From Clostridia bacterium (GTDB taxonomy: Bacteria > Bacillota > Sulfobacillia > RBS10-35 > JADGHG01), in contig JADGHG010000005.1 of NCBI GenBank assembly GCA_019689585.1, positions 1 through 47,745 on the forward strand: a stretch of 47,745 bases of DNA. The letters run 5' to 3'. The notes beneath the pieces were generated by a model that was not told the DNA's origin, made no database searches, and saw only the letters and a list, made by a program, of their open reading frames with translations. The translations under genes and the position numbers were made by a program. Shown here in pieces: positions 16,746 through 29,753 of the stretch. The first letter of the stretch is position 1. The number at the start of each line of letters is the position of its first letter.

Positions 16746-16751
16746 TATAAT
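16746..16751 (+). promoter_or_regulatory. perfect -10 TATAAT of the cox1 operon (candidate -35 GCGACA at 16722-16727, 18-nt spacer)
   Basis: Exact consensus -10 in a GC-rich context. It overlaps the annotated ORF start ATG 16750, so the real coxB start is probably 16804. Confidence 0.6.
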
Positions 16752-16803
16752 GCCCCGCGGTGATCCGGCCCATGCGCGGGCCGGGCGAGGAGGCGCGCGC
16801 AGC

Positions 16804-17829
16804 GTGCGGCGGATCCCCCGAGGCCTGGCTCTGGCGTCGTTCGCCCTCCTCGCCGGCGGCTGCACCTCGTTCGAATCGCCCCAGTCGGCGCTCGCCCCCG
16901 CCGGCCCCGTGGCGGCGGAACAGCTGCGCCTCATGATCCTCTCGGTCGTCGTGATGACGGTCGTCTTCGTCGTCGTCATGGGCATGCTGGCCTGGGTGCT
17001 CATCCGCTACCGCCGGCGGCGCGGCGACACAGAGGACCCCGAGCAGGTGCACGGCAACACCTGGATCGAGCTCACCTGGACGGCCATCCCGGTCGTGATC
17101 CTCATCTTCCTCGCCGTCCCCTCCGTGCGCGCGACCTGGCAGCTCGCCGCGCCCCCTCGGGCGCCGTCGGAGGAGGTGGCCCTGCACGTCACGGTCGTCG
17201 GCCATCAGTTCTGGTGGGAGTTCCGCTACGACGACCTCGGCGTCGTCACGGCGAACGAGCTCCATGTGCCCACGGGCCGGCCGGTCGAGATGACGGTGAC
17301 GAGCCAGGACGTCGTCCACTCCTTCTGGATCCCCAGGCTCGCGGGCAAGATCGACGCCATCCCGGGCCGGCGGAACGCCTTCTGGCTCCAGGCGGACGAG
17401 CCCGGCTACTACCCGGGCCAGTGCTCGCAGCTCTGCGGTCCGAGCCACGCGCTCATGGGCATGGCCGTCGTCGCCGAGACGCCGTCGGACTTCGACGCCT
17501 GGGTCGCGCGCATGAAGGAGCCTTTCGCGCCGCCCCAGGACCCCCTCGCGGCCCGCGGCATGGCCGTGTTCGAGAAGAGCTGCGCCCAGTGCCACGCCAT
17601 CGCCGGCACCGACTTCCAGGGCGCGATCGGCCCGAACCTCACGAAGGTGGCCGACCGCCGCTACATCGCCGCCGAGACGCTGCCGAACACCCACGACGAT
17701 CTCGTACGCTGGGTGTCGGACGCGCCCGCGGTGAAACCGGGCGTGCTCATGCCGAGCGGGACGCGCGACCTGAAGCTCGGCCCGGACGAGATCGAGGCCG
17801 TCGTCGCGTTCCTCGAGTCACAGAAGTAG
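16804..17829 (+). CDS. coxB: cytochrome c oxidase subunit II with C-terminal cytochrome c domain (caa3 type), copy 1
   Basis: 341 aa from GTG 16804, with SD GGAGG; lipobox LLAGGC; CuA site GQCSQLCGPSHALM; heme c motif SCAQCHAIAGTDFQGAIGPNLT. ORF track start 16750. Confidence 0.93.
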   Translation: MRRIPRGLALASFALLAGGCTSFESPQSALAPAGPVAAEQLRLMILSVVVMTVVFVVVMGMLAWVLIRYRRRRGDTEDPEQVHGNTWIELTWTAIPVVILIFLAVPSVRATWQLAAPPRAPSEEVALHVTVVGHQFWWEFRYDDLGVVTANELHVPTGRPVEMTVTSQDVVHSFWIPRLAGKIDAIPGRRNAFWLQADEPGYYPGQCSQLCGPSHALMGMAVVAETPSDFDAWVARMKEPFAPPQDPLAARGMAVFEKSCAQCHAIAGTDFQGAIGPNLTKVADRRYIAAETLPNTHDDLVRWVSDAPAVKPGVLMPSGTRDLKLGPDEIEAVVAFLESQK

Positions 17830-17848
17830 GGCGGAAGGGGGCGTCGCG

Positions 17849-19759
17849 GTGGACGCGGTTCCGCTGAGGGAGGCGGCCGTCGAGCGGGCGGCGCGGGTGG
17901 AGGCCGAGCCGGCGTACGGCCGCTCGGGCCTCTGGGCCTGGCTCACCACCGTCGACCACAAGAAGATCGGCATCATGTACCTCCTCGGGGGGACGTTCTT
18001 CTTCGCGGTCGGCGGGGCCGAGGCGTTCATGATGCGGCTCCAGCTCATGAACCCGCACAACCGGCTCTTCGTGGGCGAAGTCTTCAACCAGCTCGTGACG
18101 GCCCACGGCACGACGATGATCTTCTTCGCCGTGATGCCGCTCTTCATCGGGTTCATCAACTGCATCGTGCCCCTGCAGATCGGGGCGCGCGACGTCGCCT
18201 TCCCGTACCTGAACGCGCTCTCGCTCTGGCTCTTCTACGTCGGCGGGATCCTCTTCAACATCGCCTGGGTGGCCCAGTTCGTCACGGGCCGGCCGAGCGT
18301 GCCCGACAACGGCTGGTTCAACTACGCGCCGCTCAGCATCTCGCTCTACAACCCGGGGCCCGGGATCGACTTCTACGACCTCGGCATCCAGATCTCGGGG
18401 ATCGGCTCCTTCATGACGGGGATCAACTTCATCGTGACGATCGTCAACATGCGGGCGCCCGGGCTCTCGTTCCGGCGGCTGCCGCTCTTCACGTGGGCGG
18501 CGCTCGTCACGATGATCCTCATCCTCTTCGCCTTCCCGCCGCTTACGGTCGACCTCTTCCTCCTCATGTTCGACCGCATGCTCGGCATGCACTTCTTCGA
18601 CGTCACGGCGGGCGGCAACGTCCTCATCTGGCAGCACCTCTTCTGGATCTTCGGCCACCCGGAGGTCTACATCCTGGTGCTGCCGGCTTTCGGCATCATC
18701 TCGGAGGTCGTGACGGCCTTCTCCGGCAAGACGCTCTACGGCTACGACAGCATGGTGCTCGCCATCTGCGCGATCGGCTTCCTGTCGTTCATGGTCTGGA
18801 GCCACCACATGTTCGCCGTCGGCATGGGGCCCGTCGTCAACTCGATCTTCAGCATCACGACCATGCTGATCGCGATCCCGACCGGCGTGAAGATCTTCAA
18901 CTGGATCATGACGATGTGGGGCGGCAAGCTCCGGCTCACGACGGCCATGCTCTACGCGATCGGCTTCATCCCGATCTTCGTCATCGGCGGCATGAGCGGG
19001 GTCATGGTGGCGATGGCGCCGGCCGACTACCAGTACAACATGAGCTACTTCGTCGTCGCCCACTTCCACTACGTCATGATCGGCGGCTCGCTCTTCGCGC
19101 TCCTCGCGGCGCTCTACTACTGGGCTCCGCGCATCTTCGCGCGCAAGCTCGACGAGCGCCTCGGCAAGGTCGGCTTCTGGCTCGTCTTCGTCGGCTTCAA
19201 CGTCACGTTCTTCCCTCAGCACTTCGCGGGGCTCCTCGGCATGCCGCGCCGGATCTTCACGTACCGCGACGTGCCCTCCCTCGTGACGATGAACGAGCTC
19301 TCGACGATCGGCGTCTTCATCCTGGCGCTCGGCTTCCTCACGGTGCTCGCGAACCTCGTCAAGGCAGCCCTCTCCGCGCGGAACGCCGAAGCCGACCCCT
19401 GGGACGGCCGCTCGCTCGAGTGGACGATCCCGGTGCCGACGCCGGAGTACAACTTCGCCCAGATCCCGCAGGTGCGGAGCCGTGACGCCTGGTGGCGCGA
19501 GAAGCGCGCGGGCCGCACGAGGATGCCGGCCGCGGAGGCGCTTCAGCCGATCCACATGCCGCCGACCTCGATCGAGCCCCTCGTCCTCGCCGTCGCGGTC
19601 GGGGTCGCGGCCATGGGGGCGATCTACTCGCTCCCGCTCCTCATCGGGGTCGGCCTCCTCGTCGCCGCCGTGTGCCTCTACCGGGCGATGTTCCGCGAGG
19701 CGCCCGGCTACCACGTGATGCCGGCGGAGGAGCCGGCGCGGGCGGCGGAGGTGGGCTGA
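17849..19759 (+). CDS. coxA: cytochrome c oxidase subunit I, copy 1
   Basis: 636 aa; WQHLFWIFGHPEVYILVLPAFG, VWSHHMFAVGMGP, FVVAHFHYVMIGG. Confidence 0.97.
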   Translation: MDAVPLREAAVERAARVEAEPAYGRSGLWAWLTTVDHKKIGIMYLLGGTFFFAVGGAEAFMMRLQLMNPHNRLFVGEVFNQLVTAHGTTMIFFAVMPLFIGFINCIVPLQIGARDVAFPYLNALSLWLFYVGGILFNIAWVAQFVTGRPSVPDNGWFNYAPLSISLYNPGPGIDFYDLGIQISGIGSFMTGINFIVTIVNMRAPGLSFRRLPLFTWAALVTMILILFAFPPLTVDLFLLMFDRMLGMHFFDVTAGGNVLIWQHLFWIFGHPEVYILVLPAFGIISEVVTAFSGKTLYGYDSMVLAICAIGFLSFMVWSHHMFAVGMGPVVNSIFSITTMLIAIPTGVKIFNWIMTMWGGKLRLTTAMLYAIGFIPIFVIGGMSGVMVAMAPADYQYNMSYFVVAHFHYVMIGGSLFALLAALYYWAPRIFARKLDERLGKVGFWLVFVGFNVTFFPQHFAGLLGMPRRIFTYRDVPSLVTMNELSTIGVFILALGFLTVLANLVKAALSARNAEADPWDGRSLEWTIPVPTPEYNFAQIPQVRSRDAWWREKRAGRTRMPAAEALQPIHMPPTSIEPLVLAVAVGVAAMGAIYSLPLLIGVGLLVAAVCLYRAMFREAPGYHVMPAEEPARAAEVG

Positions 19760-20379
19760 TGCACGGGCAAGAGGGGCCGGTCGCGGTCCCCGAGGGCTTG
19801 CGGCCGGGGTCTCTCCCGGAGTCGCGCGTCTTCGGCTTCTGGGTCTTTCTGGCCGGCGAGGCGACGCTCTTCGCCTCGCTCATCGGCACGTTCCTCGCGC
19901 TCCGCGGCCAAACGGCCGGGGGCCCGGGCCCCGAGGAGCTCTTCGACCTGCCGCTCGTCTTCGCCGCGACGGTCGCTCTCCTCACGAGCTCGCTCACGGG
20001 GGCGCTCGCCACGCGGCAGCTCAAGCTCGGCCGGCTCTCGGGGGTCCAGGCGTGGCTCGCCGTGACGATCGTCCTCGGGGAGATCTTCCTCGGCATCCAG
20101 GCCTACGAGTTCTACCACTACATGATGACCGAGGGCTTCGGGCTCGGCACGAGCGCCTACTCGGCCGGCTTCTACACGCTCGTCGGCTTCCACGGCATGC
20201 ACGTCAGCTTCGGCGTGTTCTGGCTCATCGGCCACCTGTTCAACTCGTTCCTGAAGCGAGGCATCTCGGAGGCCGACGCGGCCAAGATCTTCGTCGCGGG
20301 ACTCTACTGGCACTTCGTCGACGTCGTCTGGGTGCTCATCTTCTCCGTCGTCTACCTCATGGGGAAGCTGGGGGTGTAG
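19759..20379 (+). CDS. coxC: cytochrome c oxidase subunit III, copy 1
   Basis: 206 aa from ATG 19759 (TGATG overlap with coxA); VFGFWVFLAGEATLFASLIGTFLAL, GFYTLVGFHGMHVSFGVFWL, LYWHFVDVVWVLIF. Confidence 0.95.
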   Translation: MHGQEGPVAVPEGLRPGSLPESRVFGFWVFLAGEATLFASLIGTFLALRGQTAGGPGPEELFDLPLVFAATVALLTSSLTGALATRQLKLGRLSGVQAWLAVTIVLGEIFLGIQAYEFYHYMMTEGFGLGTSAYSAGFYTLVGFHGMHVSFGVFWLIGHLFNSFLKRGISEADAAKIFVAGLYWHFVDVVWVLIFSVVYLMGKLGV

Positions 20380-20380
20380 C

Positions 20381-20650
20381 ATGGCCGGCGTGGGCGGATA
20401 CGTCGGTTGGACCGTCGTCATGATCGTCCTCACGATCGTGGCCTTCGTTGCCGTGGGCTACGGCCTTCTGCCGGCCCCCTGGCTCGTCGCCCTCCTCCTC
20501 GTCCTCGCCGCGATCCAGGTCGCAGCCCAGGTGCTCCTCTTCATGCACCTCTCGGCGAGCCGCCGCTTCTACGGGCTCGCGTTCGGCGCCGGGCTCGGCT
20601 TCGCCGTCATCTTCGCCGTCGGCCTCATGTACCTCGTCTGGGCCTACTAG
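20381..20650 (+). CDS. cytochrome c oxidase subunit IV-like protein, copy 1
   Basis: 89 aa; 3 TM; AAIQVAAQVLLFMHLSASRRFYGLAFGAGLGFAVIF, typical CyoD/CtaF-like. Confidence 0.85.
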   Translation: MAGVGGYVGWTVVMIVLTIVAFVAVGYGLLPAPWLVALLLVLAAIQVAAQVLLFMHLSASRRFYGLAFGAGLGFAVIFAVGLMYLVWAY

Positions 20651-20701: not shown

Positions 20702-21682
20702 TTGGAGTCTGCCGTGGTCGCAGAGCGTCTCACGAAGCGGTACGGCCAGTTCGAGGCCGTGCGCGGGATCGACTTCGAGGTGCGCCGCGGGGAGTGCTTC
20801 GGGTTCCTCGGCCCGAACGGCGCCGGCAAGAGCTCGACGATGCGCATGATCTACGGCCGCACGGGCGTGAGCAGTGGGACCCTCCGGGTCCTCGGCCTCG
20901 ACGTCGCGCGCGAGGTGAGGCGCGTGAAGCGCATGGTCGGCGTCGTACCGCAGGAGTCGAACCTCGACTCGGGCCTCACGACGTTCGAGAACCTGGCGCT
21001 CTTCGCCCGCTACTACGGCATCGGCCGCCAGGACGCCGCCCGGCGCGCCCGGCGCTGGCTCGAGTTCGTCGGGCTCGCGGACGTCGCCCGCGTCCGGGGC
21101 GACGAGCTCTCGGGCGGGATGCAGAGGCGGGCCGTGATCGCGCGGGCGCTCCTGCACGACCCCGGCCTCGTCGTCCTCGACGAGCCGACGACGGGCCTCG
21201 ACCCGGCCGCCCGCCACGCCATCTGGCAGAAGCTCGCGGAGCTCAAGGCCCAAGGCGTGACGCTCGTGCTCACGACCCACTACATGGACGAGGCGCAACG
21301 GCTCTGCGACCGGCTCGTCGTCATGGACTACGGCCGCATCCTGGCCGAAGGCCGGCCCGACGAGCTCCGTGCGCAGCTCGTCGGGGACCTCGCCGTCGAG
21401 GTGCCGTCCGCCTGGTTCGAGGCCCACCTCGGCGCGGGCGACGGGCGCGTGACGCCGCTTCTGCGCCGGAGGCTCCGGCTCGGCGCGACGCTCTTCCTCT
21501 ACCCGCAGGAGGGGCTCGCCTCGCGGCTCGTCGAGGTCCTGAACGGGCTGCCGGCGGCGCCGCGGTTCCTCGCGCGCCCGACGAACCTCGAGGACGTCTT
21601 CCTCGTCCTCACGGGGAGGGAGCTCGCGGCCGAAGGCCCCGCCGAGGGGCTGCGCACGGCCCGGTCGTCCGATGGGGGCTAA
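20702..21682 (+). CDS. ABC transporter ATP-binding protein (NodI/DrrA-like)
   Basis: 326 aa; LGPNGAGKSST, ELSGGMQRRAVIARALLHDPGLVVLDEPTTGLDPAARH, VLTTHYMDEAQRLCDR. Confidence 0.92.
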   Translation: MESAVVAERLTKRYGQFEAVRGIDFEVRRGECFGFLGPNGAGKSSTMRMIYGRTGVSSGTLRVLGLDVAREVRRVKRMVGVVPQESNLDSGLTTFENLALFARYYGIGRQDAARRARRWLEFVGLADVARVRGDELSGGMQRRAVIARALLHDPGLVVLDEPTTGLDPAARHAIWQKLAELKAQGVTLVLTTHYMDEAQRLCDRLVVMDYGRILAEGRPDELRAQLVGDLAVEVPSAWFEAHLGAGDGRVTPLLRRRLRLGATLFLYPQEGLASRLVEVLNGLPAAPRFLARPTNLEDVFLVLTGRELAAEGPAEGLRTARSSDGG

Positions 21683-22466
21683 GCTCGGCAGCCTTCCGCT
21701 CCCCAGCTTCGCCTGGCAGGCCTGGCGCGTCTGGGAGCGGAACGCGATCGAATGGTCGAAGATCTATCGGACGAGCGTGCTCCTCAACTTCGGGGAGCCG
21801 TTCATGAACCTCCTCGCGCTCGGCTTCGGGCTCGGCACCTACGTGACGAAGCTCGGCGACGTCCCCTTCGCCGAGTTCATCGGCCCGGGCCTCCTCGCCA
21901 GCACCGTGATGATGAGCGTCGCCTTCGACATGAGCTTCTCGGGCTTCAACCGGCTCCACCGCGACCGGACGTACGACGCGATGGTGACCGGCCCCTTGAA
22001 CGTTCCGGCGATCGTCGGCGGCGAGATCCTCTGGGAGGCGACGCGCGGCCTCCTCTACGCGGCCACGTTCCTCCTGGTGCTCCTCGCGCTCGGCCTTCTG
22101 CGCTCGTGGCTCGCCGTCTTCATCCTGCCGCTCGCCGTCCCGCTCGCCGTCGTCTTCGCGGCGCCCTCGATCGTGGTGGCGGCCTATGCGCGCATCGAGG
22201 ACCACATCTTCTACTACTCGACGCTCGTCATCACGCCGATGTTCATGTTCTCGGGCATCTTCTTCCCGGTCGACCGGCTGCCCGCCCTCGCGCGGGACGT
22301 CATCTGGTTCGCCCCGCTCTACCACGCCGTGAACCTCATGCGGGCGCTTTCGCTCGGCCGGATGTACCCCGGCTTCTGGAACGACCTCCTCTGGCTCGTC
22401 GTCGCGGCGGCCGTCCTACTGCCCTGGCCCGTCCTCGTCCTGCGGCGCGTCCTCGACGCCGACTAG
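21672..22466 (+). CDS. ABC-2 type transporter permease (NodJ-like)
   Basis: 264 aa; FGLGTYVTKLGDVPFAEFIGPGLLASTVMMSVAFDMSF; 6 TM; overlaps the ATPase gene by 11 nt. Confidence 0.88.
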   Translation: MGAKLGSLPLPSFAWQAWRVWERNAIEWSKIYRTSVLLNFGEPFMNLLALGFGLGTYVTKLGDVPFAEFIGPGLLASTVMMSVAFDMSFSGFNRLHRDRTYDAMVTGPLNVPAIVGGEILWEATRGLLYAATFLLVLLALGLLRSWLAVFILPLAVPLAVVFAAPSIVVAAYARIEDHIFYYSTLVITPMFMFSGIFFPVDRLPALARDVIWFAPLYHAVNLMRALSLGRMYPGFWNDLLWLVVAAAVLLPWPVLVLRRVLDAD

Positions 22467-22481
22467 GCGGGCGCAGGCCCG

Positions 22482-24035
22482 TCACATCCGCTCCGAGATC
22501 GCCTTCGCCTGGAGGAAGAGGAGCAGGTAGTCGGGCCCGCCCGTCTTGGAATCGGTCCCCGACATGTTGAAGCCGCCGAAGGGGTGGACCCCGACGAGCG
22601 CGGCCGTGCACTTCCGGTTCAGGTACAGGTTCCCGACGTGGAACGTCTCGCGCGCCCGCTCGAGATGCTCCGTCGAGCGCGAGTAGAGCGAGCCGGTGAG
22701 CCCGTACTGGGTGCCGTTGAAGATGGCCTCGGCCTCGTCGAAGTCCTTCGCGCGGATGAAGGCCAGGACCGGTCCGAAGATCTCCTCCTGGGCGATGCGG
22801 GCCGTCGGCGCGACGTCCGCGAAGATCGTCGGCTGGATGAAGTAGCCGCCCTCGGGGCCCTTCGCCCCGCCGGCGACCAGGCGACCCTCGCGCCGGCCGA
22901 CCTCGATGTAGTCGAGGATCTTCCGGTAGGCGGCCTCGTCGATCACGGGGCCCACGTCGACGGCCAGGTCCGTCGCCGGGCCGAGCACAAGCCGCCGGGT
23001 CCGCTCCACCACACGCTCGAGCACGGCGTCGTAGGCTGCGCCCACGCCGATGACGCGGCTCGCCGCCGAACACTTCTGGCCCTGGAAGCCGAAGGCCGCC
23101 TGGACGATGCCGTTCGCCGCCTCGTCGTAGTCGGCGCCTTCGTCGACCACGATCGCATCCTTGCCGCCCATCTCGGCGACGACCCGCTTGAGCCAGATCT
23201 GGCCGGGCTGGACCTTCGCCGCCCGCTCGTAGATGCGGACGCCGACGTCGCGCGAACCGGTAAAGGAGATGAAGCGGGTCTTAGGGTGGTCGACCATGTG
23301 GTCGCCGATCTCGGAGCCGCTTCCCGGCACGAAGTTCAGGACGCCCGGCGGCAGGCCCGCCTCCTCGAAGATCTCGACGAGGCGGTAGGCGATCGCCGGC
23401 GTCGTGGAAGCCGGCTTGAGGAGCACGGCGTTGCCCGTCACGATCGCGGCTGAGGTCATGCCGGTGACGATCGCGAGCGGGAAGTTCCAGGGCGGGATGA
23501 TCGCCCCCACGCCGAGCGGGATGTAGCGAAGCTCGTTGTCCTCGTCGGGGATGCGCGTCACGGCGCCGCCGGCCGCGAGCCGGTACATGTCGCGGGCGTA
23601 GTACTCGAGGAAGTCGATCGCCTCGGCCACGTCGGCGTCGGCCTCCACGACCGTCTTGCCGGCCTCGAACTGCTCGAGCGCCACGAGCTCGAGCCGCCGT
23701 CGCCGCATGATGGCGGCCGCGCGGTGCAGAAGCCGCGCCCTCGCCTCGGGCGCGACGCGCGACCAGCTGCGGAAGGCGTTCCAGGCCACCTCCATGGCGC
23801 GATCGACGTCGGCCGCCGTCGCCTGGGCCGCCCGGGCCACGACCCGGCGCGTGTCCGACGGGTCGAGGGAGTCCTTCGTGCGCGCCGTCGCGATCCGCTC
23901 GCCGCCGATGACGAGCGGGATCTCCTCCGGGAACCGGCCGGCGACGAGCGCCTGGGCCTTGCGGATCGCCTCGCGCTCGCTCTCGTCCCTGTACTGCCGG
24001 ACCGGTTCGTTCCGGAACGGCTCCTTCATCGCCAT
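22482..24035 (-). CDS. rocA: L-glutamate gamma-semialdehyde (1-pyrroline-5-carboxylate) dehydrogenase
   Basis: 517 aa; [83 protein letters not shown]. Confidence 0.92.
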
Positions 24036-24133: not shown

Positions 24134-24142
24134 GTGTCGTAC

Positions 24143-25042
24143 ATGGACAGCCAGCCGGAGCCCGTCCCCGCCGGCCCGCCTCTGCGGGCGGCCGTTCAGC
24201 GCGCCGCCGACTATTACTCGTTGACGAAACCGGGCATCGTCTTCCTCATGCTCATCGCGACCCTCGCGACGATGATGGCGGCCGCGGGCGGCCGCGTGCC
24301 CCTCGACCTCACGCTCGTCACGCTTTTGGGCACGGCGCTCGCGGCCGGGGGCGCGAACGCCGTCAACTGCTTCGTCGACCGCGACATCGACCGGCTCATG
24401 TCCCGCACCCGCTCGCGGCCCTTGCCGGCAGGGCGCGTGCGGCCGGCCGAGGCGCTCGCCTTCGGCATCTTTTGCCTCGTCGCGTCCTTCGCCGTCCTCT
24501 GGGTCGGGGTCAACCCGCTCGCCGCGGCCGCGGCTCTCGGGGGCGCCGCCTTCTACGTGTTCGTCTACACGCTCTGGCTCAAGCGGCGCTCCCCCCAGAA
24601 CATCGTGATCGGCGGCGCGTCCGGCGCCGTGCCGCCCCTCATCGGCTGGGCCGCCGCGACGGGCCACATCTCGCTCGCGGCCGTCGCGCTCTTCGCCGTC
24701 ATCTTCCTCTGGACGCCGCCTCACTTCTGGGCCCTCGCGCTCTACAAAGGCGACGACTACCGGCGGGCCGGCGTCCCGATGATGCCGATCGTGGCAGGCG
24801 AGGCGGCGACGAAGCGCCAGATCGTCTGGTACACGGCCTTCATGGTGGCCGCCGCGCTCGCCGCCTACCTCCTCGGCGTGGGCGGCTACGTCTACCTGGC
24901 GGGGAGCCTGGCCCTCGGCGTCGGCTACATCGCGCTCACCCTGCGAGCCTTGCGCGACGACTCGGAGAGCATGGCGCGGCGCCTCTTCAGCTACTCGATC
25001 CTCTACCTCACGCTGCTCTTCGCGCTCCTCGCCTTCGGGTGA
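24143..25042 (+). CDS. ctaB: protoheme IX farnesyltransferase (heme O synthase)
   Basis: ANAVNCFVDRDIDRLMSRTRSRPLPAGRV; NIVIGGASGAVPPLIGWAAATG; LWTPPHFWALALYKGDDYRRAGVPMMPIVAGEAATKRQI. The track's GTG start at 24134 directly abuts the -10, so 24143 is preferred. Confidence 0.95.
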   Translation: MDSQPEPVPAGPPLRAAVQRAADYYSLTKPGIVFLMLIATLATMMAAAGGRVPLDLTLVTLLGTALAAGGANAVNCFVDRDIDRLMSRTRSRPLPAGRVRPAEALAFGIFCLVASFAVLWVGVNPLAAAAALGGAAFYVFVYTLWLKRRSPQNIVIGGASGAVPPLIGWAAATGHISLAAVALFAVIFLWTPPHFWALALYKGDDYRRAGVPMMPIVAGEAATKRQIVWYTAFMVAAALAAYLLGVGGYVYLAGSLALGVGYIALTLRALRDDSESMARRLFSYSILYLTLLFALLAFG

Positions 25043-25112: not shown

Positions 25113-25553
25113 ATGTGGCAGGAACTTCTGGCGGCCGTCGGCGGGCTCTTGCTCGTCCTGCTCCCGGTCCTCCAAGGGTATGCGAATCAGACGCTGCTCC
25201 TCCTCCTGAACCTCGCGATCGCCGTGCACGTCCTCTACCTCTCGCTCTCGGCCTTCGCCATCAGCCGCATCGAGAGCCGCACCTGGCGACGCTACCCCGG
25301 CCGGCGCTGGCTCATGGTCGTGGCTGCGCTGGTCGCGGCGCCGGCCGTGGCACTGCCGCCGCTCCTCGGCCTCGGCACCGACCTTGTCGCCTCGCGCAAC
25401 AACCTCTTCTGCGGTGCGCTCATCTTCTTCTGCTCGCTCTGGGCCGCGCTTCTGCCGCCGCCCGCCCGCGGCGAGGCGGAGGAGGCCGCCGAAGAGGCGC
25501 CTTCGCGCCGCCGGAGCCCGCGCGCCGGCGCCGAGCTCACGGCCGGGGCCTAG
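25113..25553 (+). CDS. uncharacterised 4-TM membrane protein (cox-linked family, copy 1)
   Basis: 146 aa MWQELLAAVGGLLLVLLPVLQG...NLAIAVHVLYLSLSAFAISR...; alignable over its length with 25550..25927. Confidence 0.7.
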   Translation: MWQELLAAVGGLLLVLLPVLQGYANQTLLLLLNLAIAVHVLYLSLSAFAISRIESRTWRRYPGRRWLMVVAALVAAPAVALPPLLGLGTDLVASRNNLFCGALIFFCSLWAALLPPPARGEAEEAAEEAPSRRRSPRAGAELTAGA

Positions 25554-25927
25554 CCCTCCTCGGCCGGGCCCGCCTCCCGCCACGCGTCGAGGGCGGCCCA
25601 GAGCGCGAAGAAGAACGCGGCCCCGCCGAAGGCGAGGTTGTCCCGCGCAGCCGTCACGTCGCCGCCCTGCCCGAGGAGGGCGGGCGCCACCACGGCCATG
25701 CCGGCGAAGGCGGCCGCGGCGAGGAGGAGCCAGCCTCGCTCCGGGTGGTCCCGGCCCGAACGCCGGTCGGCCCGGTGGATGCCCCAGGCGGCGAGCGAGA
25801 GGTACGCGACGTGGAGCGCCAGGCCGAGGTTGACGAGGTAGAGGACCCCCGCCGAAAGGAAGCCGTTCCAGAAGGCAGCCGTGCCGAGGAGCGCGGCCCC
25901 TGCGGCCGCCGCCAGCTCGAGCCACAC
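25550..25927 (-). CDS. uncharacterised 4-TM membrane protein (cox-linked family, copy 2)
   Basis: 125 aa MWLELAAAAGAALLGTAAFWNG...NLGLALHVAYLSLAAWGIHR...; last gene of the cox2 operon, 1 nt after the subunit IV stop; paralog of 25113..25553. Confidence 0.75.
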   Translation of the reverse strand: MWLELAAAAGAALLGTAAFWNGFLSAGVLYLVNLGLALHVAYLSLAAWGIHRADRRSGRDHPERGWLLLAAAAFAGMAVVAPALLGQGGDVTAARDNLAFGGAAFFFALWAALDAWREAGPAEEG

Positions 25928-25928
25928 G

Positions 25929-26261
25929 CTAGCGCACCACCCACACGAGGTACCAGATCGCCAGCACCCAGATCACGGCGAAGTGCGCCCCCATCCCGAA
26001 GTAGACGAGGTACCAACGGCTCGTCCGGCCGAGGTGCATGAAGAGGGTGAGCTGAAGGACGACCTGCCATGCGCCGAGGAGAAGGAGCGACCAGCCGACG
26101 TACGCTCTCGGGAGGAGCCTGAGGCCGACCAGCGCGAAGGCCAGGACGGTCCACGCAACCATGAGGAGCCACGCGAAGAGGAAGGCGCGCCAGGGCGCGC
26201 GCCGAGGGCGGATCTGCGCGCGGCCCTCCGCAGTGAGCCCCTCGTCCGCCTCGGACCTCAA
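25929..26261 (-). CDS. cytochrome c oxidase subunit IV-like protein, copy 2
   Basis: 110 aa from TTG 26261 (TTGA overlap with coxC2); GAWQVVLQLTLFMHLGRTSRWYLVYFGMGAHFAVIWVLAIWYLVW. ORF track gives 26312. Confidence 0.82.
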   Translation of the reverse strand: MRSEADEGLTAEGRAQIRPRRAPWRAFLFAWLLMVAWTVLAFALVGLRLLPRAYVGWSLLLLGAWQVVLQLTLFMHLGRTSRWYLVYFGMGAHFAVIWVLAIWYLVWVVR

Positions 26262-26899
26262 CCCGCCCCCGCCACCCCGAGGAGGTAGACGGCCGAGAAG
26301 ATGACGACCCACACGACGTCGACGAAGTGCCAGTAGAGGCCCGCCACGAAGAGGCGCGCCGCCTCCTCGCGCGCGATCCCCTCGAGGAGGATCGACTGGA
26401 AGAGCGCGGCGAGGAGCCAGAAGACGCCGAAGGTGACGTGAAGGCCGTGGAAGCCGACGAGCGTGTAAAAGGCGCTTGCGAAGGCGCTCGTCGAGAAGCC
26501 GAAGCCGGCGTGGGCGGCGTAGCTCCAGAACTCGTACGCCTGGATGGCGAGGAACGCCTCCCCGAGGGCGGCCGTGGCGGCGAGCCAGAGCTGCATGGCG
26601 CGGAGCCGGCCTTCGCGCGCCGCCAGCACGGCGAAGGCGCAGGTGAGGCTCGAGGTGAGGAGCGCGACCGTGGCGACTCCCACGAGGGGGAGGTCGAAGA
26701 GCTCGCGCGGCCCGGGCCCCCCGGCCGTCCGCCGGGAGAGGGCGAGGAAAGTCCCGATGAGCGAGGCGAAGAGCGAGGCCTCGCCGGCCAGGAAGACCCA
26801 GAAACCGAAGACGCGGTTCTCGTCCGCGGACCCGCGCGGAAGCCCTTCGGGGACGGAGGCCGGGGAGCGGCCGGGGACGGCGTAGGCCGGCTCGCTCAC
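26258..26899 (-). CDS. coxC: cytochrome c oxidase subunit III, copy 2
   Basis: 213 aa from GTG 26899; ENRVFGFWVFLAGEASLFASLIGTFLAL, ASAFYTLVGFHGLHVTFGVFWLLAALF, LYWHFVDVVWVVIF. Confidence 0.94.
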   Translation of the reverse strand: MSEPAYAVPGRSPASVPEGLPRGSADENRVFGFWVFLAGEASLFASLIGTFLALSRRTAGGPGPRELFDLPLVGVATVALLTSSLTCAFAVLAAREGRLRAMQLWLAATAALGEAFLAIQAYEFWSYAAHAGFGFSTSAFASAFYTLVGFHGLHVTFGVFWLLAALFQSILLEGIAREEAARLFVAGLYWHFVDVVWVVIFSAVYLLGVAGAG

Positions 26900-28725
26900 G
26901 CGCGGACCTCCTCCGCCGGCCGCACGACCACGCCCGGCGCCCGTCCGAACATCCCCCGGTAGAGGCCGAAGGCGACGAGCGCCGCGCCCGGCGCGCCGAG
27001 CCACGGCTTCCCGTAGATGAGGCCGAAGGAGGCGGACGCCGCCCCGAGCGCGATGAGAAACGGCAGCGCCGAGGGCGGCGGGAGGTGGATCTCCTCGGGC
27101 GCCGGGGCCGACCCGGTCTCCCGCTCCGACGCCTTCTTCTTCATGGCCCAGAAGGCGTCGCGGCTCGTCACGAGGGGGATGCGCGCAAAGCCATACTCCG
27201 GCACCGGTGTCGGCAGCGACCACTCGAGCGTGCGCGCGTCCCAGGGGTCGGCCGGCGCCCGCTCGCCCCGCACGAGGGCGGCGACCGTGTTGCCGAGAAG
27301 CACGAGGAACCCGGCCGTGAGGACGAAGACGCCCGCCGTGGAGACGAGGTTCAGCGTGGTGAGCCCCCAGTCGTCGGGGTAGGTGTAGACGCGGCGCGGC
27401 ATGCCGAAGAGGCCGAGGAAGTGCTGGGGGAAGAAGGTGACGTTGAAGCCCGTGAACACGAGCCAGAACGAGAGCTTGCCGAGCCGCTCGTCGAGCATCC
27501 GCCCCCAGATCTTCGGGAACCAGTAGTGGTACGCGGAGAGGAGCGCGAAGAGCGAGCCGCCCACCATCGTGTAGTGGAAGTGGGCGACGACGAAGTACGT
27601 CATGTTGTACTGGTAGTCGGCCGGCGCCATCGCCACCATCACCCCGGTGACGCCGCCCAGCACGAAGATCGGGATGAAGCCGACGGCGTAGAGCATGGCC
27701 GTCGTGAAGCGGATGCGTCCGCCCCACATCGTCGCGAGCCAGTTGAAGATCTTGATGCCCGTCGGGATCGCGATCATCATCGTCGTCACGCTGAAGACGC
27801 CGTTCACGACGGGGCCCATGCCGGCCGTGAACATGTGGTGGCTCCAGACGACGAAGGAGAGGAACGCGATCGCCGCGAGCGCCAGCACCATGCTGTCGTA
27901 CCCGAAGAGCGACTTGCGCGAGAAGGTCGCGACGACCTCGGACACGATGCCGAACGCCGGAAGGATGAGGATGTAGACCTCCGGGTGGCCGAAGATCCAG
28001 AAGAGGTGCTGCCAGATGAGGACGTTGCCCCCGAGCGAGACGTTGAAGAAGTTCGCGTCGAGGAAGCGGTCGAAGGTGAGGAGGAAGAGGTCGGCCGCAA
28101 GGGGCGGGAAGGCGAAGACGATCATGGTCGAGGTGATGAGCGCGGCCCAGGTGAAGAGCGGCATGCGCCGCAGCGTCATCCCCGGCGCGCGGCCGTTCAG
28201 GATCGTCACGACGAAGTTGACGCCGGTGATGAGCGTGCCGACGCCCGAGATCTGTCCGCCCAGCGCGTAGAAGTCGGGTCCGAGCCCGGGCGTGTAGGCG
28301 GGCAGGGTGAGGGGTGCGTACGCGAACCAGCCGTCGTTCGGGTACTGGCCCGCGACGATGCTCCAGTTGAAGACGACGGCGCCCGCCAGGAAGAGCCAGA
28401 AGCTCAAGGCGTTCAGAAACGGGAAGGCGAGGTCGCGCGCGCCGATCTGCAGCGGCACGACGTAGTTCACGAAGCCCAGGAAGAGCGGCATGATCGCGAA
28501 GAGGATCATGTTGAAGCCGTGGAGCGTGACGACGCCGTTGTAGGTGTCGCCGACGATGAGCCGCGAGCCGGGGTGCATGAGCTGGAGCCGGATGAGGAAC
28601 GCCTCGACGCCGCCCACCGCGAAGAAGAAGGCGGCCGAGACGAGGTAGAGGATCCCGATCCGCTTGTGGTCGACCGTCGTGAGCCAGGGACGGAGCCAGC
28701 GCCAGAAGGCTTGGGCGGTCCTCAT
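26896..28725 (-). CDS. coxA: cytochrome c oxidase subunit I, copy 2
   Basis: 609 aa from ATG 28725; IWQHLFWIFGHPEVYILILPAFGIVSEVVATF, VWSHHMFTAGMGPVV, VVAHFHYTMVGG. Confidence 0.96.
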   Translation of the reverse strand: MRTAQAFWRWLRPWLTTVDHKRIGILYLVSAAFFFAVGGVEAFLIRLQLMHPGSRLIVGDTYNGVVTLHGFNMILFAIMPLFLGFVNYVVPLQIGARDLAFPFLNALSFWLFLAGAVVFNWSIVAGQYPNDGWFAYAPLTLPAYTPGLGPDFYALGGQISGVGTLITGVNFVVTILNGRAPGMTLRRMPLFTWAALITSTMIVFAFPPLAADLFLLTFDRFLDANFFNVSLGGNVLIWQHLFWIFGHPEVYILILPAFGIVSEVVATFSRKSLFGYDSMVLALAAIAFLSFVVWSHHMFTAGMGPVVNGVFSVTTMMIAIPTGIKIFNWLATMWGGRIRFTTAMLYAVGFIPIFVLGGVTGVMVAMAPADYQYNMTYFVVAHFHYTMVGGSLFALLSAYHYWFPKIWGRMLDERLGKLSFWLVFTGFNVTFFPQHFLGLFGMPRRVYTYPDDWGLTTLNLVSTAGVFVLTAGFLVLLGNTVAALVRGERAPADPWDARTLEWSLPTPVPEYGFARIPLVTSRDAFWAMKKKASERETGSAPAPEEIHLPPPSALPFLIALGAASASFGLIYGKPWLGAPGAALVAFGLYRGMFGRAPGVVVRPAEEVRA

Positions 28726-29753
28726 CGGAGCGTCTCCAGGAAGGCGACGACGTCGCGGATCTGCGCGTCGGTGAGGGCGAGCTTCCCCTTGCCCGACGGC
28801 ATGAGCACCCCTGGTTTGAAGACGGAGGCGTCGGTCACCCAGCGGACGAGGTTCTCCCGGTTCAGCTCGAGGGTGCCGGCCCCGATCGTCTTGCGGAGCA
28901 TGAGGGCCGTCAGGTCCGGGCCGGTCGCGCCTTTGAAGGCGGTCCCGCGGATGGCGTGGCAACTCGCGCACTTCGCGGCGAAGATCTGCATGCCCCGCGC
29001 CGCGGCGCTCCCCGGCGGCGGGGGCGAGAACGGCTTCGTGAGCTCCGCCCGCCAGGCCTCGAAGGCCGATGGGGTATCGGCGTAGACGGTCGTCAGCATG
29101 TGCGCGTGGCTTGCCCCGCAGAGCTGCGTGCACTCGCCCGCGAAGACGCCCGGCCCGTCGCTCTGGAGGTAGAGGAAGTTGCGCCGGCCGGGGGCGGCGT
29201 CCACCTTGCCGCCGAGCCGCGGCACCCAGAACTCGTGCATCACGTCCGCCGAGGTGACGCGCAGGTCGAGCGGCCTCGCCGCCGGGACGTGGAGCTCGTT
29301 CGCCGTCACGAGCCCGAGGTCGTCGTAGCGGTATTCCCACCAATACTGGTGGCCGACGACGGTGACGCGCATCCCGCCGGCGACCGGCTTGGCGAGGTAG
29401 AACGTGTCGGTGAGGGACGGCACGGCGAGAAGCACGAGCAGCCCCGCGGGCACGGCCGTCCAGGCCACCTCGAGCCAGGTGACGCCCGGGTTGTCCGCGC
29501 CTTCGGAGGCGTCGCCGGGGCGGGCGCGAAAGCGCACGACGATGTAGAGGAGGACGAGGAGCACGGCCGCCGAGATGGCCCCGACGACGACGAGGCTCAG
29601 GCCGAGGAGGTCGAGCTCCATGCGCGCCGCGGGGCCCGCGGGCGCGAGGACGGAGCCCGGCCGCTCCACACTGCAGCCTGAGAGGGCGAGCGCGAGAAGG
29701 GCGACGGCGGGCGCCTCGGCGGCGCGCCTCGCTCGGCCGTGCCTCCGCCCCAC
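28722..29753 (-). CDS. coxB: cytochrome c oxidase subunit II with cytochrome c domain (caa3 type), copy 2
   Basis: 343 aa; lipobox ALALSGC; GECTQLCGASHAHM; CASCHAIRGTAFKGATGPDLT. Confidence 0.94.
   Translation of the reverse strand: MGRRHGRARRAAEAPAVALLALALSGCSVERPGSVLAPAGPAARMELDLLGLSLVVVGAISAAVLLVLLYIVVRFRARPGDASEGADNPGVTWLEVAWTAVPAGLLVLLAVPSLTDTFYLAKPVAGGMRVTVVGHQYWWEYRYDDLGLVTANELHVPAARPLDLRVTSADVMHEFWVPRLGGKVDAAPGRRNFLYLQSDGPGVFAGECTQLCGASHAHMLTTVYADTPSAFEAWRAELTKPFSPPPPGSAAARGMQIFAAKCASCHAIRGTAFKGATGPDLTALMLRKTIGAGTLELNRENLVRWVTDASVFKPGVLMPSGKGKLALTDAQIRDVVAFLETLR

Follow-up and report, generated by a model that had tools for sequence, protein, structure and literature searches.

Two convergent genes in the window (the whole 47,745-nucleotide stretch of DNA analysed here) encode small membrane proteins of a divergent branch of the SPW repeat family (PF03779), all eight known copies of which lie directly behind ctaB or coxD. 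The pair is real, conserved and oxidase-linked, and could plausibly act in the assembly of the oxidase or form part of it. Our preferred reading, to which we give a probability of roughly 45%, is that the two proteins belong to a divergent, oxidase-dedicated SPW branch and would serve as assembly or cofactor-handling factors for caa3 oxidase, with a histidine in the second transmembrane helix as a putative heme or copper ligand.

The convergent pair and its oxidase neighbours

The first-pass annotation had described two homologous reading frames meeting tail to tail, one behind ctaB and the other following by 1 nt the subunit IV gene of the cox2 operon. Coordinates, strands and neighbours were all recovered (Table 1), ctaB being a gene of the UbiA family and the operon a caa3-type one with a cytochrome-c-fused CoxB, and the convergent stop codons overlap by 4 nt in one palindromic CTAG. 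The encoded proteins, P0001 and P0002, share 46% identity and 67% positives over 78 aa (BLASTP, E 2e-17), a similarity far beyond chance. Hydropathy gives four hydrophobic transmembrane (TM) segments in each protein, as had been proposed, and in P0001 an AlphaFold2 model of moderate confidence (pLDDT 70-74) places helices at residues 2-21, 27-57, 63-84 and 91-113. The consensus proposed for the two proteins stood in its overall pattern; two details did not, since the closing Gly of MWxEL-x2-A-x2-G lies one residue earlier in P0002 and the 'AR' element reads SR in P0001.

Orthologues of the linked proteins are under purifying selection, with dN/dS values of 0.05, 0.14 and 0.21 in same-genus pairs, and we therefore regard P0001 and P0002 as products of real genes. 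They are the only copies of their subfamily in the window genome (G000).

Table 1. Coordinates of the gene pair and of the oxidase loci in the window
Feature	Position	Strand	Remarks
cox1 operon coxBACD (caa3 type)	16750..20650	+	G007 counterpart lacks an SPW-like gene after coxD
ctaB, heme O synthase (UbiA family)	24134..25042	+	Ends 70 nt before P0001 gene
ctaB-linked SPW-like protein P0001	25113..25553	+	ATG start, 146 aa, 4 TM, His39
CTAG palindrome, stop codon for P0001 and P0002 genes	25550..25553		TAG on either strand
coxD-linked SPW-like protein P0002	25550..25927	-	GTG start, 125 aa, 4 TM, His39
cox2 coxD-like subunit IV	25929..26312	-	COX4_pro 28.1 bits; 1 nt before P0002 gene
cox2 coxC (subunit III)	26258..26896	-	Start inferred
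cox2 coxA (subunit I)	26896..28725	-	Groups with G007:C30 coxA
cox2 coxB fused to cytochrome c (caa3 type)	28722..29753	-	

The window holds two complete caa3-type operons (16750-20650 and 25929-29753), which are separated by about 5 kb, run in opposite directions and both carry the coxB-cytochrome c fusion; a third, distant coxA-type operon is found on contig C10 of the same genome. The COX4_pro score of the cox2 coxD-like gene falls slightly below the cut-off of 28.9 bits, and its true start may lie further in. Between cox1 and ctaB (20702-24035) are a pair of ABC-2 type transporter genes and, in convergent orientation, an aldehyde dehydrogenase gene.

Assignment to the SPW repeat family

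SPW proteins occur in bacteria and archaea. The pair had been thought to represent a family that may be undescribed; a Pfam search instead leads to SPW, of which it is a very divergent branch. P0001 scores 31.8 bits against PF03779, whose cut-off is 31.5, a slender margin by itself, but all five ctaB-linked copies found in this study exceed that threshold (31.8, 43.7, 42.7, 40.7 and 36.5 bits), aligning to positions 1-92 or 1-93 of the profile. Taken alone, the coxD-linked copies fall below it (15.2 bits or no match), and we count them as members because they are homologous to the ctaB-linked copies (99.8% in a profile comparison with hhalign). The eight linked proteins and a set of 28 canonical SPW proteins from their class were compared profile to profile; they matched at 95% (E 3e-8, 112 columns), whereas a control with reversed sequences gave 3.6%. 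The three coxD-linked proteins by themselves gave a weaker 63%. The function of SPW is itself uncharacterised, and the only literature found for PF03779, a modelling paper, gives none (PMC8078820).

In a tree, the eight linked proteins group together as a single clade that is distinct from canonical SPW proteins (support 100/99). They share with the family an architecture of two TM-hairpin repeats, a Trp at the start of TM1 and a Pro, usually with a Gly, in the second-repeat motif. Their four helices make up two hairpins, and each half matches the canonical profile in three of the genomes carrying them (G005, G001 and G003). The literal Ser-Pro-Trp motif is absent from both repeats; the residues kept are W2, W110 and P82, the last of these belonging to the second motif and present in all members. 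Degenerate second motifs that retain Pro are a feature of the family at large (PMC8078820). Because the motif is missing from both repeats and only P82 of it is kept, on sequence grounds the pair is a divergent branch of the SPW family rather than a set of typical members.

Besides these eroded motifs, the linked proteins differ from the rest of the family in the fixed position of their genes beside ctaB or coxD, in a longer, Arg/Lys-rich TM2-TM3 loop and in one TM2 position. There, all 28 canonical SPW proteins have Gly and all eight linked proteins have His39, the exact register of this column being a matter of judgement given a one-residue alignment gap nearby. The conserved TM2 histidine noted in the first reading of the window is thus common to the whole branch. 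Since the TM2-TM3 loop is rich in Arg and Lys, the positive-inside rule predicts that both termini are cytoplasmic and that His39 lies in the outer half of TM2.

No assignment other than SPW stands from searches of Pfam, NCBIfam, PDB sequences and Foldseek. The PDB sequence search matched no chain of any solved structure, and Foldseek with the model returned no solved structure alike. Matches of the model to copper storage proteins and receptors were given no weight because they had E values of about 1 and reflect generic four-helix bundles.

Distribution, linkage and origin of the two copies

A subfamily profile search found linked proteins in five of the 13 genomes of the order (G000, G001, G003, G005 and G007), which represent three families. 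Among 398 sampled genomes of the phylum the subfamily appeared only in G000, and protein searches of 150 relatives gave convincing scores only in the same five genomes. A search of named genomes with P0001 returned no relative, 80 ctaB loci of named genomes contained no SPW-like gene, and plasmids gave no match. In the five carriers, all of them draft assemblies and together the whole linkage sample, eight of eight copies lie directly behind ctaB (five) or coxD (three), which extends to relatives the close tie to oxidase genes first seen in the window. This linkage is retained across the three families at 30-48% protein identity.

The arrangement varies in detail. In G003 and G007, ctaB and its SPW gene overlap by 4 nt when the longest start is taken, and a coxBACD-copy unit converges with a ctaB-copy unit as in the window; of that operon, the G003 contig includes no more than the end with coxC and coxD. 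The coxD-linked copy follows coxD by 22 nt in G003 and by 1 nt in the window; the common CTAG stop is not kept in G003 or G007, where the intergenic gaps are 28 and 363 nt. G001 and G005 have a ctaB-linked copy only, and in the G005 draft only a distant coxA was found. G001 has an order of ABC transporter, aldehyde dehydrogenase, ctaB and SPW genes similar to that of the window, and so does G005, though with additional genes.

Such linkage could in principle be neutral, an ordinary SPW protein of general role having been caught next to ctaB in a single lineage and duplicated locally with no function in the oxidase. SPW genes occur frequently in the class (67 of 154 genomes), where none was found within 10 kb of ctaB outside the five carriers when positions were compared by eye, and the pair is confined to five genomes of a single order, as this explanation would have it. 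However, the genes have been kept in three families despite their divergence, in two separate positions and with operon-like spacing; G001, G005 and G007 also retain an ordinary SPW gene elsewhere; and both a long branch and the Gly-to-His change are specific to the linked copies. We consider it unlikely that the linkage carries no function.

Two observations on ordinary SPW genes were made alongside. A textbook two-repeat SPW protein of G007, with two SPW motifs (L102, 17631-17966), is encoded about 8 kb from that genome's second cox operon, possibly by chance, with an aldehyde dehydrogenase gene and a sugar-phosphate isomerase-like gene as neighbours. A large SPW subfamily, mostly from family f11 of the class (L041-L067), has a conserved first repeat (GAWFVVSAWALNPMHS) and no oxidase genes within 1.5 kb.

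The first-pass annotation assigned one copy to each oxidase operon and placed a duplication boundary inside the pair, which would mean that a local duplication made both the two copies and the two cox operons. In the window the genes stand tail to tail with a cox locus on either side, which invites this interpretation, but the same convergent pair surrounds one cox operon in G003 and G007, and the second cox operon of G007 is on another contig and lacks a copy behind coxD. One copy accompanies ctaB and the other a single cox operon. The flanks of the copy-less G007 operon contain electron-transfer-flavoprotein, peptidase and aldehyde dehydrogenase genes, as around cox1 in the window. In the coxA tree, the window cox2 sequence groups with that of the SPW-linked operon on contig C30 of G007 (99/98), and the separation of the cox1 and cox2 copies predates that of the two families to which the window and G007 belong. 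The grouping indicates that the operons diverged before the window arrangement arose, and a local origin by one duplication is accordingly very improbable. Given this grouping and the resemblance of the copy-less operon to cox1, we assign the pair to the ctaB/cox2 junction; it would hence be older than, or independent of, the adjoining cox1. P0001 and P0002 may have duplicated either before or after the families separated: in AU tests, a clade of the coxD-linked copies had p = 0.42 and a clade of the window pair p = 0.26.

A candidate role in oxidase biogenesis

The positions of the SPW-like genes are those of a known oxidase factor. CtaM (YozB; DUF420, PF04238), a protein with four (or five) TM helices, is needed for functional aa3/caa3 oxidase (PMC9145763), a requirement for active enzyme that is also reported in work lately linking it to copper handling (PMC13344008). 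Its gene adjoins ctaB in S. aureus and is the last of ctaCDEFM in B. firmus (PMC9145763). Six genomes from sister families in the order have DUF420/CtaM directly behind ctaB; G012 carries it on a separate contig. The SPW-like genes, whose products are of similar length and also have four TM helices, fill both CtaM-type positions, behind ctaB and at the end of a cox operon, and it is because these are the places of CtaM in other bacteria that we favour a role in assembly or cofactor handling.

The likeness does not extend to sequence. Homology to DUF420 was rejected, as the linked proteins have no Pfam match to it and hhalign against nine DUF420 proteins of the order gave 5.5%; CtaM also has several conserved His residues, in contrast to the one found here. 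In G001, G003, G005 and G007, DUF420 persists at a locus of its own, together with rpmF and a gene resembling spermidine synthase, and the SPW-like proteins therefore do not simply replace it. A search of G000 found no DUF420. Contig C125 of that genome (L225, 8740-9311) breaks off within a PAP2-like gene whose counterpart in G001 is immediately followed by DUF420, and the lack is probably an assembly gap; we thus do not count it as evidence that the pair replaces CtaM in the window genome and, since the contig breaks exactly at that locus, claim no loss of DUF420. Homology to CoxD (COX4_pro, PF03626), likewise a small membrane protein encoded at the end of cox operons, was also discarded: profile comparison gave 4.7%, and a separate coxD lies just upstream of the SPW-like gene.

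The proteins might instead be accessory structural subunits of caa3 oxidase, lying in the membrane next to CoxA and CoxC. A hydrophobic four-helix protein with no obvious catalytic residues except His39, maintained by purifying selection and encoded at the very end of cox2 and of its G003 equivalent, would suit such a part. Yet the universal position of these genes is behind ctaB (five of five carriers) and not in the structural operon, the other cox operon of G007 manages without a copy after coxD, and G005 has its ctaB-linked copy though its draft yielded only a distant coxA. We regard a structural subunit as rather unlikely.

On the preferred reading, an assembly or cofactor-handling role, one paralogue would work with CtaB and the other with one caa3 operon, both acting as membrane factors for the oxidase beside CtaB and in the outer half of the membrane. 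His39, at a site occupied by Gly in ordinary SPW proteins, could there ligate heme or copper, perhaps across a homo- or heterodimer. The specific proposal of heme handling, suggested by one conserved histidine, is weak. Against the preferred reading count the location of other SPW proteins away from oxidase genes, the absence of sequence relation to DUF420 and its retention in four carriers, the small set of five draft genomes behind the linkage, and the moderate confidence of a model that resembles no solved structure.

A review of bacterial oxidase assembly expects that more biogenesis factors are still to be discovered (PMC9145763). The pair may, as a tentative and somewhat doubtful extension of our reading, constitute a class of biogenesis factor for heme-copper oxidases that is new and specific to the lineage, drawn from the SPW family, marked by a Gly-to-His site and divided into CtaB-side and oxidase-side duplicates. 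Its fixed placement beside ctaB and a caa3 operon makes this branch the first SPW group for which we have found a lead that is concrete and testable.
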